The translations under genes and the position numbers were made by a program. A stretch of 22,024 bases of DNA from a virus: IMG/VR virus record IMGVR_UViG_3300030060_007888, positions 1-22,024 of that record. One strand, given 5' to 3'. Position 1 is the first letter of the stretch, and the number at the start of each line of letters is the position of its first letter. Shown piece by piece: positions 13,041 to 19,047 of this stretch. The notes under the pieces were generated by a model, which ran no database searches, was not told the origin of the DNA, and saw only the letters and a list, made by a program, of their open reading frames with translations.

Positions 13041-14264
13041 ATGCCAAGCAATTTATCAGATTTCGCTATCAAAAATTTAAAAAGCAAAGGTGATTACAGG
13101 GTTTCACAAAGTCTGTATGTTCGAGTAAAAACTCATCCAAGATTGGTTAAAGAATGGCGTATCCGCCAAACAATCGACGGCAAACGCAAGTGGATCTATA
13201 TAGGCTCCTACCCGGCAATCTCTCCCAAACAAGCTCGAGCGAAAGCAGCCGAGCTCCTGAGCTCCGACCAAGCGCCCCAAGAAGTTTTACGCGAACAGAA
13301 ACAAAAGAAAGTTGCGAGCGCCAGGAGGACTGAAAAGAAAGTTACTTCTTTTGCAGTGGTTGCTGATGACTATATAAAAAACATTAAGCGACCAGTTTGG
13401 AATGACAGAGGTCGAAGCGAACAGTCCTGGCAGAACACTTTGAACAGTTACATTTTGCCAGTGATCGGCAAGAAAGAAATCGAGGACATCTATCCCGACG
13501 ATGTTGTGAAAGTTTTAAAACCAATCTGGACCACCAAACACGAAACGGCAGTTCGCACTCGATCTCGTGTAGAAAATATTATCGACTACGCAATCGCAAA
13601 AGGCATTAGCGAAAAACGTAATCCAGCACAGTATAAAAATTTGCTCGAGAATCTCTTACCGAAGTTTAAGCCAGAAATAAATCACCATGCAGCATTACCG
13701 TTCGATGAGCTCCCAGGTTTCATTTCTGAGCTATGGGATAAAAAAGAAGGCTCCTACGATGCCCTAAAATTGATTTCGCTCACTCAAGTACGAAGTAATG
13801 ACGCCAGAGAGGCCGTATGGGACCACTTTGATTTGCAAAATGGCGTGTGGATGTGCCCGATTCAAAAACTGGGCGGGGAAGTTCACAAGCTGCCAATCCC
13901 TAAAAAATTACTCTGGTTATTGCAGGAAAGAATAGAAGTTACGAAAGATGAAAGATTGTTTCCTGGCCTTGGGAGAAATAAATTTATCAGCAGCAATGCG
14001 CTCGATAAATCTTTAGACGTTTTCTCTCGAACTGATGCCGTGGGCAAGCGAGTCACGATACATGGTTTCCGCTCTACTTTTATGGACTGGGCAACGGCCA
14101 CTGGTGCAGGAACTCGAGAGGACGCAGATCGTCAACTCGGACATCGAGAGAGAAATGCGGTCCTCGCGGCGTACATGAGGACCGACCTTTTCGACAGGCG
14201 CGCAAAATTAATTCAAGAATATGAGGACTTTGCTTTCTCTGATGTTGCTTCCTCGAGCCATTGA
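13041..14264 (+). CDS. int: Tyrosine-recombinase integrase (P4-type, DUF4102 arm domain)
   Basis: A 407-aa protein that joins attP to a host tRNA gene. Residues 1-85 form the DUF4102 arm-DNA-binding domain (LYVRVKTHPRLVKEWRIRQT, then GKRKWIYIGSYPAISPKQAR). Residues 110-210 are the SAM-like core-binding domain. The catalytic domain shows R251 (SLTQVRSNDAREAVW), H341-x-x-R344 (HGFRSTFMDWA), H368 (QLGHRERNAVLAAY) and the nucleophile Y378 (AAYMRTDLFDRR). All catalytic residues are present, so it should be active. It starts at ATG 13041 directly behind the arm repeats. The last 52 bases are overlapped on the other strand by the excisionase-like gene. Confidence 0.95.
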   Translation: MPSNLSDFAIKNLKSKGDYRVSQSLYVRVKTHPRLVKEWRIRQTIDGKRKWIYIGSYPAISPKQARAKAAELLSSDQAPQEVLREQKQKKVASARRTEKKVTSFAVVADDYIKNIKRPVWNDRGRSEQSWQNTLNSYILPVIGKKEIEDIYPDDVVKVLKPIWTTKHETAVRTRSRVENIIDYAIAKGISEKRNPAQYKNLLENLLPKFKPEINHHAALPFDELPGFISELWDKKEGSYDALKLISLTQVRSNDAREAVWDHFDLQNGVWMCPIQKLGGEVHKLPIPKKLLWLLQERIEVTKDERLFPGLGRNKFISSNALDKSLDVFSRTDAVGKRVTIHGFRSTFMDWATATGAGTREDADRQLGHRERNAVLAAYMRTDLFDRRAKLIQEYEDFAFSDVASSSH

Positions 14265-14519: not shown

Positions 14520-14816
14520 TCAAAATTCGCATGTTCCTCCATCACACCCAGTTTGGTTCAGGTATGCTTGCAGTTTTTGATCGTCCACTTCTCCGAGCTC
14601 TTTTCCTTTTTTTCCTTCTACTTCTTCTATTAAAAATTCGACGTAGTGCTTTATCTTTTTCAAATCTTCAATGCCGTTTTTCTCTCGCCACCGAGAGATG
14701 TACTTCACAATGTTTCCTTCGATGTAACTTAATCCGTTGGCCTGGATATATTCGATTGGCTGTATAGCCATGCCTTTGTAATGATCGCCGCCGATTTGTT
14801 TGTCATAAGCGCTCAT
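14520..14816 (-). CDS. DUF3310 protein
   Basis: A 98-aa protein starting MSAYDKQIGGDHYKGMAIQP, then IEYIQANGLSYIEGNIVKYI, then SRWREKNGIEDLKKIKHYVE: the full DUF3310 signature (GGDHY, P-E-x-I, EGN-x-x-KY-x-R, DL-K-x-x-Y). These small proteins occur in many phages near nucleotide or replication genes, and some are labelled nucleotide kinase-like, without proven activity. I prefer ATG 14816, which lies 14 bases inside the end of the upstream gene, to the longer frame starting at 14945. Cys residues near the C-terminus (GCDGGTC) might bind metal. 109 bases separate it from the excisionase gene. Confidence 0.85.
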   Translation of the reverse strand: MSAYDKQIGGDHYKGMAIQPIEYIQANGLSYIEGNIVKYISRWREKNGIEDLKKIKHYVEFLIEEVEGKKGKELGEVDDQKLQAYLNQTGCDGGTCEF

Positions 14817-16104
14817 AATTTGCTCTTTCTGCAATTTCTTTTTTATCTGCCTCGAGGGCGTAATCTTTATGCACCACACCGAGTTTAGAATCGCCTCGAG
14901 TGTGCGCTTTGACCCAAGTTCTTCTTTTAAACTCGCCGTGCTCATTTCTTAATATGCGCCAATGTCCTCGAACCTGGTGCTGCCTTACGCCGTAGTGCTC
15001 CTCTCGACCAGGAAGCGGGTCGCGTATTTCGATGCCTTCTTTTGGCAAAGCAATCTTTGCACGATAGTAGTGATCTTGCGGCGCAATTCTTGGCGTTTTA
15101 GATTTCCTGCCAATTACGCCCATCACCTTTTCTGTTTTAGTCCAGGGATAATTCAGCACGTTCATTAAATAAATTACGAAACGTAGTGCAGTAGGAATAT
15201 ATGATAAATATAAGATATTTAGTGACTTGTGATTTTTTCGAAATGAAAAACTAAAGTTTTCGTCGATGAGCACGTTGTCGCATAAATTTCGATAACTATC
15301 ATTTCCATAATAAATGTATCCCTTAGATTCATCCCAATGACGCAACGTGCCTTCCCCATCATATGTGTTATCTTCATAAGTCAGTGTGCGACCTTGTCGA
15401 TCTATAAAAATTCCAGGCGGCATCAAACTGAAACCGAATACGTGAAATGATGTGTAGTGTTGAATTTCGTCGATTCGGTTTGGTTTGGTTTCATCATCAA
15501 ACTTATGTGCGCGAAGTTCCCTGATATTTCGGTCACTACGGTCTGTCGGGATTACGATGACAGGTGCATGGAAATAATTTTCATGGAAAAATTTAAAGTT
15601 TAGTGCGTTGACAGGATTCTCTCTCCCCTCAATAAGCTGCTTACTTTCAGTAATCAAACACCCGAATGTTCTTGATTGTGCATTAATCAAATCTTTTATT
15701 TCTGGCCCATAATCGTCGTAATGGCCGAACTCGAAACCGTGTTCGATATTTTTTGAATCAAACTCGACCCATACTCGAGGGAACGGCAAACGAAAGTTAT
15801 CAAAATAGTTATAAAATTCGTTTGGTGTTTTTTTAGAAACATAATTGTCCCAAACAAAATTCATAAGATCGTTCTCAACATCAAAACGCTTCGCAGTGCG
15901 CAAGTCTATTCGTAAATTCGCACAGCATTTCTTTCTTAATTTTTTTATGTTTTTTGAATTGACTATTTTTTTTGTTATCGAATCTTCCATGGAAAAAGGA
16001 GTGTCGTTTTGTTGCACCATATATTCGTAATTTGGCAAGTTGTTAGGTTTATCGAGAGCTCGATTCACAAAATTATAAAGCTCTCCTACTTGTACTGGTT
16101 CCAT
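14803..16104 (-). CDS. AcrVA2-like protein (putative)
   Basis: A 433-aa protein. The start is ATG 16104 (MEPVQVGELYNF), which overlaps the stop of the 41-aa gene (TAATG) and has an AGAGGA site; an upstream in-frame ATG at 16176 lies inside that gene. The N-terminal three quarters are mixed alpha/beta with no enzymatic motif. The C-terminus has VRGHWRI (378-384) and RRTWVKAHTRGDSKLG (394-409), the arrangement I recall from the phage/plasmid family that includes AcrVA2, an inhibitor that lowers Cas12a production through its mRNA/nascent peptide. Many relatives occur where no Cas12a is known, so an anti-CRISPR function here is only a hypothesis. Place in the early operon would suit a counter-defence gene. 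It slightly exceeds the size I remember for AcrVA2. Confidence 0.5.
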   Translation of the reverse strand: MEPVQVGELYNFVNRALDKPNNLPNYEYMVQQNDTPFSMEDSITKKIVNSKNIKKLRKKCCANLRIDLRTAKRFDVENDLMNFVWDNYVSKKTPNEFYNYFDNFRLPFPRVWVEFDSKNIEHGFEFGHYDDYGPEIKDLINAQSRTFGCLITESKQLIEGRENPVNALNFKFFHENYFHAPVIVIPTDRSDRNIRELRAHKFDDETKPNRIDEIQHYTSFHVFGFSLMPPGIFIDRQGRTLTYEDNTYDGEGTLRHWDESKGYIYYGNDSYRNLCDNVLIDENFSFSFRKNHKSLNILYLSYIPTALRFVIYLMNVLNYPWTKTEKVMGVIGRKSKTPRIAPQDHYYRAKIALPKEGIEIRDPLPGREEHYGVRQHQVRGHWRILRNEHGEFKRRTWVKAHTRGDSKLGVVHKDYALEADKKEIAERANYERL

Positions 16105-16229
16105 TAAGAATCCTCTTTTTTGTTTTCTAAGATCGATACAATTTTTTCTAATAAAGCAGTCACCTCTCCGGCCCACTCAAGCGCCTCTCTAGCGTCATCA
16201 TCATCGATCTCAATTGTTATTTTTGTCAT
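16104..16229 (-). CDS. 41-aa acidic protein, unknown
   Basis: The frame runs from ATG 16229, which overlaps the stop of the nuclease gene (ATGA), to TAA 16104-16106, which overlaps the ATG of the next gene. The peptide starts MTKITIEIDDDDAREALEWA and ends in a helix (LLEKIVSILENKKED); it has a short strand followed by an amphipathic helix. Coupling on both sides and the absence of a gap indicate that it is a real gene. It is strongly acidic (DDDD at 9-12). It may be a small partner of a neighbour, but nothing shows which. Confidence 0.65.
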   Translation of the reverse strand: MTKITIEIDDDDAREALEWAGEVTALLEKIVSILENKKEDS

Positions 16230-17251
16230 CCGGCAACCCTCCCATCGAATGTCTGTTTAATCTGATCAACGGTTTCATCACCGATGATCCTGACGTCTTG
16301 AGCGAGGCTGATCTCAATAGATGAGTACCCTGGCTCGCCGTTCAAAAATTCTTTGCCATTCTGCGTGTTTTTATATTTCACGCTCTCGCCGTCCATCTCT
16401 TTGAACTCCGCCCAGTTTTCTATCAGGTGCGGGATGAAGCGATGCTGGTCGCAGCCTTGCTTTTGTAATTGGCGCGTGAGCTCCAGGTTTTTCTTTTCAC
16501 ATAGCCAGCGGCCATCTTCTTTCTCTGGCGTGGAATGAACACAGGTCCGGCAATTAGCCTGGGGCGTTGCCTCGTAATGACAGAGCTCCTTATAGTCGCA
16601 GAAGCGACATTTGAAAAACGTCGGGTCTTCACTCAACTTTGTTGGCGGAGACTCGGCAGCCACAATCGCTTCGGCCTTTGCCTCAATCCTGGCTCCTTCG
16701 TCTCGGTCATACTCGACGCGCTCAAAATAAAGTTCATCATCATTTTTATTTACGACAATGTAGGCGGCAAACTTGAGGCCACTAAGATGCATATAGATTT
16801 GCATCTGCGCATAGTGAACTGGCTTTGCTGACCGTACTCCTGCTTTCTGCACCTTCTTAAATTCTTTATCGCTTGACGTTTTGAATTCGGCTAGGTGCCA
16901 CTCAGGATGATCTGGCAAATTTTTTAGCGCACCGTCCAGATGTCCACCGCCATGCCCCCAGGCAAAACTCACTGCGAATTGCTCACCAGTTTTTTCATCA
17001 ACCTCATAGCAATCGACGCCAGCGTCGGTTAAATATTTGATCAATGCGGGTTCCTCGCGATGGCCTCTATCGAAGAGGCGCAAGATGCGAGGACCAAAGA
17101 CAATTAGCATCGCCCAACGAAATGAGTACCAAAGTTTCCGCTCACACTCTTCGCCGATCTGACTACCGCCGAGGTAGTGCCGCCCGACCGATGGCGGATT
17201 GTTCTCCGCCACGGCCAGGTCGATTGCTTCAATGAGCTCTAGCTCTGCCAA
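16226..17251 (-). CDS. PD-(D/E)XK exonuclease, Cas4/RecB-like, with two Cys clusters
   Basis: A 341-aa protein. The start is TTG 17251, preceded by AGAGGA at a good distance and overlapping the DUF669 gene by 13 bases. Nuclease motifs: G63-H-x-x-E67, GHLDG with D106, E122-F-K124 (the D...ExK metal site) and the QMQIY motif at 148-152. C36, C214, C217 and C223 are spaced like the four ligands of the iron-sulphur cluster in Cas4 and AddB. A second group C233, C236, C250, C266 with H269 follows and looks like a zinc-ribbon-type addition. Probably trims DNA ends for the recombination pathway together with the neighbouring annealing proteins. Cas4 itself in a CRISPR locus is excluded: no cas1/cas2 or array. 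Confidence 0.85.
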   Translation of the reverse strand: MAELELIEAIDLAVAENNPPSVGRHYLGGSQIGEECERKLWYSFRWAMLIVFGPRILRLFDRGHREEPALIKYLTDAGVDCYEVDEKTGEQFAVSFAWGHGGGHLDGALKNLPDHPEWHLAEFKTSSDKEFKKVQKAGVRSAKPVHYAQMQIYMHLSGLKFAAYIVVNKNDDELYFERVEYDRDEGARIEAKAEAIVAAESPPTKLSEDPTFFKCRFCDYKELCHYEATPQANCRTCVHSTPEKEDGRWLCEKKNLELTRQLQKQGCDQHRFIPHLIENWAEFKEMDGESVKYKNTQNGKEFLNGEPGYSSIEISLAQDVRIIGDETVDQIKQTFDGRVAG

Positions 17252-17760
17252 GGGGCTTTTTCCTCTCCACCAAGGTTAGGCACTGGATCATCGAAGTTGC
17301 TTTGGTTGGCTGCCTTCGTTGGTGCTTGAGGAGCCGGGGCTGCTTGAGGCAGCGGCTTGTATTTCTTAATCGCTACTCGCTCAGTGCCGTCTCGCTTGTC
17401 TACGTCAATTTTGGTTTCAACGATAAGCTCATTATTCAAAATGTCTTCTTCGTTTTCTGCCGTGCCGGAAAGGCCAATTGCCCTGCACAATCGAGAGAGC
17501 TCCTCAACCGCAATTTTCTCAGCAACAGGATTACTGTGCTTAATGTTATAAAAAACACTAAAGTCCTTGCCATCCTGTGGGCCGCCTTTGACCTCAAAAC
17601 CAAGTCGCAACCATCTCCCGGTTCCTTGGTTGTTGTCTCTTTGATCGCTATCAAAAATCACCACTTGGTAATTACCTGGCGGGATTGGTGTGTTGTCGTA
17701 AGAAGACTGATCCTGCTGGTCTTCAGACTCATGCTGAATAGAAAAATTTAAATTACCCAT
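17239..17760 (-). CDS. DUF669 family, ssDNA-binding-like protein
   Basis: A 173-aa protein with ATG 17760 overlapping the end of the ATPase gene by 8 bases and a GGAG site upstream. It starts MGNLNFSIQHESEDQQDQSS, then PIPPGNYQVVIFDSDQRDNN and TGRWLRLGFEVKGGPQDGKD, which is the DUF669 pattern (P-G-x-Y, G-x-x-L-x-x-x-F-E-V-x-G-G). The linker is Pro/Ala/Gln-rich (PQAAPAPQAPTKAAN) and the tail is acidic then PWQS, reminiscent of SSB proteins. DUF669 proteins are thought to act as phage SSB partners of annealing proteins. Family recognised; activity inferred. Confidence 0.8.
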   Translation of the reverse strand: MGNLNFSIQHESEDQQDQSSYDNTPIPPGNYQVVIFDSDQRDNNQGTGRWLRLGFEVKGGPQDGKDFSVFYNIKHSNPVAEKIAVEELSRLCRAIGLSGTAENEEDILNNELIVETKIDVDKRDGTERVAIKKYKPLPQAAPAPQAPTKAANQSNFDDPVPNLGGEEKAPWQS

Positions 17761-18550
17761 TTACTGCTTGCTCCTTTTTTTCTGGATTAGTTGATTCTTT
17801 TAATGCAGCCATGAATGCGCTCCAACTTAATTGAATCTCTCCTTCTAAGTTGTACCGATTCTTGGCCGTGTGGTGAGGTCCACCAGTGGTGACTAAAACT
17901 CTCTCGCCAGTGTCGATACCTTTGTTGCGAGTCTGGCCAAAGCCCTTATCTTCTTTGCGCAATGTAATTTTGTGCTTGGCAAAGAAAACGCAGTCCACGG
18001 TTTCGGCAACGATCCCTGAGCTCTTTTGGTGTAGTTTGAGATCGTGCTTGTCTAATTGGCCATACTCCGCATCGTCGATTTTCTTTTGCTGATTGTGTGC
18101 TATTAAAATGATTGCCATCTTCTTTTTTTTCCGCAGTGTCTCGAGCTTTTTTAAGAAGACTCGCCATTCCTGAGCGGCAGCATTGTAGCCAGCACCATAG
18201 CCAGCCTTATCAATGTTGGCCCAGCCGTTCTTTTGGCATAGGTCTGCCCAGATCAAAGGCTCGAGGTGGTCAATTGAATCGACGACCAATGTGCCGTATT
18301 TGTGGTCGTTGTTTAGAAGACTGTCCACGGCCTCGAGGACTTCCTCGTAGCTCGTCGCAATGCCCTCGCTACCAAAATGGAATGTGTCAATCTCGAGCAT
18401 CCCATGCCCTGCTTCGGTTTGAATGAAAATAGGAGAGGGTGCTTGGCTTGCGAAAGTGGTCTTGCCAACCCCGCTGGTGCCGTGGATACAAATCATTGGT
18501 GGGCTATCGAGCCCCTTGGTTTTTTTAATTGCGGATAAATCTATAGCCAT
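17753..18550 (-). CDS. Sak4-like RecA-fold ATPase (AAA_24)
   Basis: A 265-aa protein, ATG 18550 with AAAGGA upstream. Walker A is G24-T-S-G-V-G-K30-T31; Walker B is TLVVDS with D91; a following IDHLEPL, then IILIAHNQQKK (sensor-type IAH) complete the RecA-like core of the phage AAA_24/Sak4 family. Members promote single-strand annealing or recombination and typically lie beside DUF669 and a nuclease, as here. The length is normal. An intrinsic-terminator-like hairpin lies directly upstream, so expression may be reduced relative to the first gene of the operon. Confidence 0.9.
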   Translation of the reverse strand: MAIDLSAIKKTKGLDSPPMICIHGTSGVGKTTFASQAPSPIFIQTEAGHGMLEIDTFHFGSEGIATSYEEVLEAVDSLLNNDHKYGTLVVDSIDHLEPLIWADLCQKNGWANIDKAGYGAGYNAAAQEWRVFLKKLETLRKKKKMAIILIAHNQQKKIDDAEYGQLDKHDLKLHQKSSGIVAETVDCVFFAKHKITLRKEDKGFGQTRNKGIDTGERVLVTTGGPHHTAKNRYNLEGEIQLSWSAFMAALKESTNPEKKEQAVNG

Positions 18551-18630: not shown

Positions 18631-19047
18631 TCAGAGCTCAGATTGTTCAATTGTTATGTTGGGTTTTTGGGGTTCACTTACGATGCAGCGCGAGAGAATC
18701 TTATAAGTCTCCGGTTCGTTGTTTTTGAGATATCGCAGTCGCTTGGTGTCCAGCACTTCGCTGATTTTCAGCGGCAACATATCTACCGGGATTTCGTCAC
18801 GGACTTCGTTTAGGGCTTTGCCATCAAAGCTGCGTTTGATTTGTTTTTTGACGACAATTTTTTTGTTGTGCCGAGTCGTTGTGGTGGCCTGGCCTTCGAC
18901 TTTTTGAGCTAGGAGGGGAAGCATTCGTTGTTCGACTTCTAAACGCTTTTTTCTTGCGCCTTCCTCGCAAGCCTTTTGCATCAGCCAAATTTCTGCAAGC
19001 TGATCGAGGTCGGGCTCATTGTGATTGACGATTTCTAGATGTGACAT
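18631..19047 (-). CDS. DUF7173-like replication-module protein
   Basis: A 138-aa protein, ATG 19047 preceded by AGAGAGG. The N-terminal half is a helical segment (LAEIWLMQKACEEGARKKRL, then EVEQRMLPLL). The C-terminal half has TTTTRHNKKIVVKKQIKRSF, then a helix, DEIPVDMLPLKISEVLDTKRL, and a closing segment ending in IVSEPQKPNITI. This layout is common for small phage proteins of the DUF7173 type located next to Sak4/DUF669 genes; their function is unknown. It is the first gene of the leftward replication operon. Confidence 0.6.
   Translation of the reverse strand: MSHLEIVNHNEPDLDQLAEIWLMQKACEEGARKKRLEVEQRMLPLLAQKVEGQATTTTRHNKKIVVKKQIKRSFDGKALNEVRDEIPVDMLPLKISEVLDTKRLRYLKNNEPETYKILSRCIVSEPQKPNITIEQSEL

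Follow-up and report, generated by a model that had tools for sequence, protein, structure and literature searches.

The analysed window is an IMG/VR virus record of 22,024 bases (GC 46%), in which virion genes on the left are followed by the gene for a tyrosine integrase and by an early operon that reads leftward, and the AcrVA2-like gene of this operon is carried by a marine temperate phage (Table 1). In transcription order, the DUF7173 gene, the Sak4-like ATPase, the DUF669 SSB-like protein, the Cas4-domain exonuclease and a 41-residue ORF precede it, and it is followed by the DUF3310 gene and also by an AlpA-like regulator. The sequence-only reading placed the ORF between the nuclease and DUF3310 genes. 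Both neighbours were confirmed, with the 41-residue ORF intervening after the exonuclease.

Table 1. Features of the early operon in the window and of the AcrVA2-like gene
Feature	Position	Strand	Basis or remark
DUF3310 gene, downstream	14520-14816	(-)	family match 2e-12
Putative AcrVA2-superfamily gene, 433 aa, early phage operon	14803-16104	(-)	ORF, relatives, profile and fold evidence
Frozen C-terminal part, residues 321-433, presumed effector	14806-15144	(-)	codon changes vs L002
Fast-changing front, residues 1-320, presumed target-recognition part	15145-16104	(-)	codon changes vs L002
Conserved strand LPFPRVWVEF, residues 106-115	15760-15789	(-)	aligns with RLPdWcvYIE, start of AcrVA2 central domain
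41-aa acidic ORF, between exonuclease and AcrVA2-like gene	16104-16229	(-)	no family match
Cas4-domain / PD-(D/E)XK exonuclease, upstream, same operon	16226-17251	(-)	phrog_1990, 4.3e-102
DUF669 SSB-like gene, same operon	17239-17760	(-)	
Sak4-like ATPase gene, same operon	17753-18550	(-)	
Gene with DUF7173 match, function not assigned, first upstream gene in transcription order	18631-19047		

The ORF itself was read correctly: it is present on the minus strand with 433 codons, and it is coding, as indicated by an overall dN/dS of 0.18 against its nearest relative (L002, 91% identity). The C-terminus VRGHWRILRNEHGEFKRRTWVKAHTRGDSKLG is found in its translation, as had been quoted. Its start is the ATG at 16104, which is preceded by AAAGAGGATTCTTAATG and lies behind GAGG, and position 16176 is a mere in-frame GTG upstream. 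The stop of the 41-residue ORF shares one base with this ATG (TAATG), and translational coupling of the two genes is likely from this arrangement; the small protein is 100% identical to that of L002, with 8 silent changes. The DUF3310 gene most likely starts at 14816, overlapping the stop of the AcrVA2-like gene.

Direct searches with the window protein gave nothing useful in Pfam, NCBIfam, PADLOC, the PDB, phage records and genome contigs, and its PHROG matches are weak and belong to families without annotation. A Pfam match to PRO8NT (0.13) and a Foldseek match to the 80alpha portal (0.02, prob 0.04) were both judged to be chance. In IMG/VR, the family includes L002 and L003, which have 91% identity and the same gene order, and more than 20 further relatives at about 20-35% identity. 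L002 and L003 have the early operon in common with the window at about 95% protein identity, and a mosaic junction lies next to the integrase (window 13041-14264, L002 7853-10170), where the integrase match extends over only about 49 residues before other genes follow. Members of the close family have in common LPF..xWxEF in the front, a helix ending in LNYP, the motif D-x-Y[YH]-x-x-KI-x-LPK, and HQVRGHWR...TWI..H.RGDxKLGVV.KDY in the tail.

Phages of Sinorhizobium, Caulobacter, Brevundimonas and Mycobacterium carry weaker relatives that are built on the same plan. These are hypothetical proteins of about 290-410 residues (Sinorhizobium phage Phosso gp53, Caulobacter phage C1 gp308, Brevundimonas phage Gurke GURKE_02570 and Mycobacterium phage Omnicron gp54), which resemble the window protein in the HxVRGHW..RG tail and the LP...WIE strand, at a mutual identity of about 17-22% and with weak pairwise E-values (2e-3 to 1). 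The genomic contexts of the relatives vary and include terminase genes, amidoligase and endonuclease/DNA polymerase, and two of them (L036 and L038) lie near Sak4 and polymerase/primase genes. A more distant relative (L052:3804-4814) adjoins a phage amidoligase gene (phrog_2443, 2e-34). No host could be assigned: judged from the phage relatives of the exonuclease and of the virion protein, various bacteria, marine and other, come into question, and one relative is found in a Verrucomicrobiales MAG, on a contig that may be misbinned. A plasmid search with the integrase indicated no host.

The AcrVA2 family proper also extends well beyond Moraxella. Shewanella phage vB_SbaS_Y11 ORF43 (WIF21996.1), published as AcrVA2-like (PMC10846135), is a phage-borne relative that matches the AcrVA2 structure 7CI1 at 1.5e-72 and is a clear homologue, in contrast to the window protein. 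Its own relatives are found in phages of Moraxella, Leptospira, Pasteurella, Erwinia, Dickeya and Lactobacillus, in 601 plasmid records and in more than 100 stretches of IMG/VR contigs. Conservation in this family marks RLPxWcvYIE, where the central domain starts, and RPHIRRaHWHgYWxG....kWlpP, at the end, and it is highest at the C-terminus. Erwinia phage RisingSun gp126 (L022:301-1302) is a member of the family, yet it is annotated as a "putative mycothiosynthase", and the end of the AcrVA2 relative JA13_060 of a Dickeya phage (L023:289-1332) runs into the start of a gene predicted to encode a (p)ppGpp synthetase.

The window protein and its alignments A1 and A2 did not match 7CI1 at E<=10 (phmmer and profile hmmsearch), AcrVA2 was not found with window-family profiles of 6 and 12 sequences, and hhalign of the 12-sequence alignment against AcrVA2 gave a Prob of only 4%. 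The link emerged once more relatives of the window protein were added. The resulting 29-sequence family scored 46.7 (Prob 81%) and 52.0 (89%) when compared in either direction with 18 AcrVA2 relatives, while column-shuffled profiles reached a maximum of 24.1 in 300 comparisons over two family profiles, and it scored 41.9 against 95 AcrVA2 relatives, with a shuffled maximum of 23.7 (n=120). With all 12 random subsets the scores were 35-46, each time at the expected places, and the signal was weaker (19-40) when only the 20-sequence close family was used. The best score among 15 real unrelated clusters was 17.0, and an AcrVA2 alignment made quickly and with redundancy scored just 21.1 in this test, which shows that the signal depends on alignment quality. 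Since the relatives were gathered by resemblance to the window protein and not to AcrVA2, the agreement is not circular.

The profiles match in colinear order at two sites that lie apart, RLPF..WVEF and HQVRGHW, so that the C-terminus, in which AcrVA2 likeness was originally seen, is one of two anchor points. With the C-terminus removed, FDVENDL..RLPFPRVWVEF of the front still aligns with YRIDEEI..RLPDWCVYIE at a score of 29.7 (null maximum 18.8), and the C-terminal segment alone scores at the edge of its null. In the motif H-x-x-R-[AG]-H-W, residues H376, R379, G380, H381 and W382 align with H325, R328, G329, H330 and W331 of ORF43, and the downstream W397 aligns with W348. The invariant R327 and the near-invariant H332 of AcrVA2 relatives (Y11 ORF43 numbering, PHIRRaHWH) are V378 and R383 in the window protein, which are themselves invariant across the 12-sequence window family.

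An AlphaFold model built from 27 sequences has a mean pLDDT of 64 and a pTM of 0.64, and its C-terminal part is poorly modelled. Foldseek alone gave no PDB match at E<=0.001 for this model. When the Foldseek candidates were realigned, 7CI1 (Z 7.6, 212 residues) and 7CI2 (Z 7.5, 207 residues) came out on top, with an rmsd of 6-7 Å to the AcrVA2 structures, and the next chain had a Z of 4.0 over 61 residues. A second model, built from 6 sequences, again placed 7CI1 and 7CI2 first (Z 6.6 and 6.4, next 2.7). Z values below 8 are modest singly, and the weight of the predicted fold lies in the isolation of these matches, their repetition and their agreement with the profile alignment. Significant structural matches of the window model in BFVD are to unannotated phage proteins, including Bacillus phage PBC2 A0A218KBS8 (4e-4), which suggests a wider superfamily.

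The modest single AcrVA2 scores, the basic C-terminus and the presence of an exonuclease, an SSB and Sak4 in the operon would also be compatible with an accessory protein of DNA replication or recombination, whose resemblance to AcrVA2 would be a coincidence of common arrangement. This is distinctly unlikely, as AcrVA2 alone stands above unrelated chains in two models, the profiles agree at two colinear places beyond both the shuffles and the unrelated clusters, and the gene is not tied to a recombination operon in its relatives. The lead given by the sequence-only reading holds, because the profile scores (42-52 against a shuffled maximum of 24) and the two fold models single out AcrVA2. What stood is the remote homology, seen in profile-profile scores beyond the nulls and in the fold; the Cas12a-specific part did not, with no direct match to 7CI1, R327 not conserved and no Cas12a host shown.

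The window protein is thus supported, from profiles and models, as a homologue of AcrVA2 in a remote, undescribed branch of the superfamily. By its sequence it is not AcrVA2 proper, because 7CI1 is not detected directly and the invariant R327 is replaced by V378. The two have in common the modelled fold, the order of conserved segments, the C-terminal H-x-x-R-[AG]-H-W with a later tryptophan, and a conserved tail behind a variable front. Unlike AcrVA2 of Moraxella bovoculi (7CI1, 7CI2), the window protein has a longer central region and its own tail RGD-KLGVV-KDY, and has no Cas12a link.

The protein has two parts that differ strongly in their rate of change. Between the window and L002, the front 320 residues have 37 amino-acid and 42 silent codon changes, whereas the last 113 residues have 0 amino-acid and 14 silent changes (Fisher 6e-4). 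The neighbouring genes have 208 silent and 41 amino-acid changes in the same comparison (front against neighbours, Fisher 2e-7). The dN/dS is 0.38 for residues 1-105, 0.16 for residues 106-320 and 0 for residues 321-433, and is 0.00-0.07 in the neighbouring genes. Two other pairs of relatives, L012-L014 and L012-L043, have 36 and 91 amino-acid changes in the front and 1 and 1 in the tail, respectively. In the close family, residues 367-420 have 70% pairwise identity and no gaps, while residues 121-300 have 22% pairwise identity and 39% gaps. The C-terminal part is basic (pI 10.0) and contains H376-Q-V-R-G-H381-W...TW...RGD-KLGVV-KDY. Judged from these codon comparisons, the front is changing rapidly under weaker constraint, at a dN/dS of 0.16-0.38 that falls short of positive selection. 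A frozen tail with a fast front would fit the pattern of a constant effector joined to variable target recognition, and suggests an AcrVA2-like silencing aimed at a different target.

The overlap of the start and stop of the gene with neighbouring operon genes, and the location of L036 and L038, would also suit a protein of AcrVA2 fold whose targets are genes of the phage itself and which would serve the early operon as a translation-coupled feedback regulator. However, the contexts of the relatives vary, and a fast front is not obviously expected while the neighbouring genes are conserved, and such a regulator is unlikely.

AcrVA2 reads the N-terminus of Cas12a on the nascent chain and sets off the loss of Cas12a mRNA, by a degrading machinery that is unknown, and according to a review this is the first documented prokaryotic case of translation-coupled mRNA destruction (PMC13131331). 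The IncI1 plasmid fertility inhibitor FinQ, which is reported to stop transcription of the tra operon at several sites without Rho and lowers tra transcripts (PMC8744291), matches 7CI1 at 4.1e-18 (phmmer). FinQ corresponds to L026:565-1653 of the E. coli plasmid NZ_CP123589.1 (tblastn 4e-15 over 95% of Y11 ORF43), and by these sequence matches it is a clear AcrVA2 homologue; no paper naming FinQ and AcrVA2 together was found in a literature search. The annotated finQ start lies 104 codons inside an open frame (L026:565-876), and the finQ gene model is probably truncated, because this upstream frame matches the front of AcrVA2. FinQ belongs to the same superfamily as the window protein and acts on a rival mobile element at the RNA level (PMC8744291), and it differs in having the PHIRRGHWHTYW form of the motif, in being a plasmid gene and in having the F tra operon as its target. 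Both characterised members, AcrVA2 and FinQ, lower the transcript of a specific opponent.

Because both do so, a silencing function is proposed for the window protein as well; the homology itself is the supported part, and the function is inferred by analogy. The favoured reading, at slightly below an even chance, is that this remote member of the AcrVA2/FinQ superfamily is a nascent-chain-guided mRNA silencer of a target other than Cas12a. As in AcrVA2, the front would grip a peptide of a single specific protein while this emerges from the ribosome, and the constant C-terminal part, which may contact the ribosome, mRNA or the decay machinery, would then cause the loss of the mRNA of that protein. 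The target would probably lie either among other defence factors of the host or among the genes of a competing mobile element, comparable to the F tra operon for FinQ. Of the two functions suggested earlier, an anti-CRISPR or a wider translation-linked silencer of another factor, the latter would be the best inference, and it is strengthened by the membership of FinQ, too, in the AcrVA2 family.

A role as a type V-A anti-CRISPR, with Cas12a itself downregulated as by AcrVA2, would agree with the remote homology, the fold and the early phage gene, but it is highly improbable: the window protein is very distant from Moraxella AcrVA2, with no direct sequence match, and members of the AcrVA2 family are themselves spread over the phages and plasmids of many bacteria. 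A search for Cas12a gave 0 in the relative-linked genome and in 142 genomes of its order, where the control also gave 0, which leaves this negative with little weight. A remote AcrVA2 homologue could also inhibit its target by binding the finished protein, with no mRNA loss, as AcrVA2 in crystals binds the Cas12a peptide 618-634 (PMC13131331) and the front is the variable part. This seems fairly unlikely, as it leaves unexplained both the frozen basic C-terminal part that is common to very different fronts and the RNA-level effects of AcrVA2 and FinQ.

A remote branch with a frozen tail and a variable front indicates which part of these proteins probably serves as general machinery and which part does the aiming. 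More tentatively, phages and plasmids may carry a large superfamily of translation-coupled mRNA silencers, with a constant C-terminal effector and a fast-changing nascent-peptide reader, of which AcrVA2 and FinQ would be the two known ends and the window family a marine branch. With FinQ and the window branch, the targets of AcrVA2-type proteins outside Cas12a become directly testable in E. coli, since both the phenotype and the target operon of FinQ are known.
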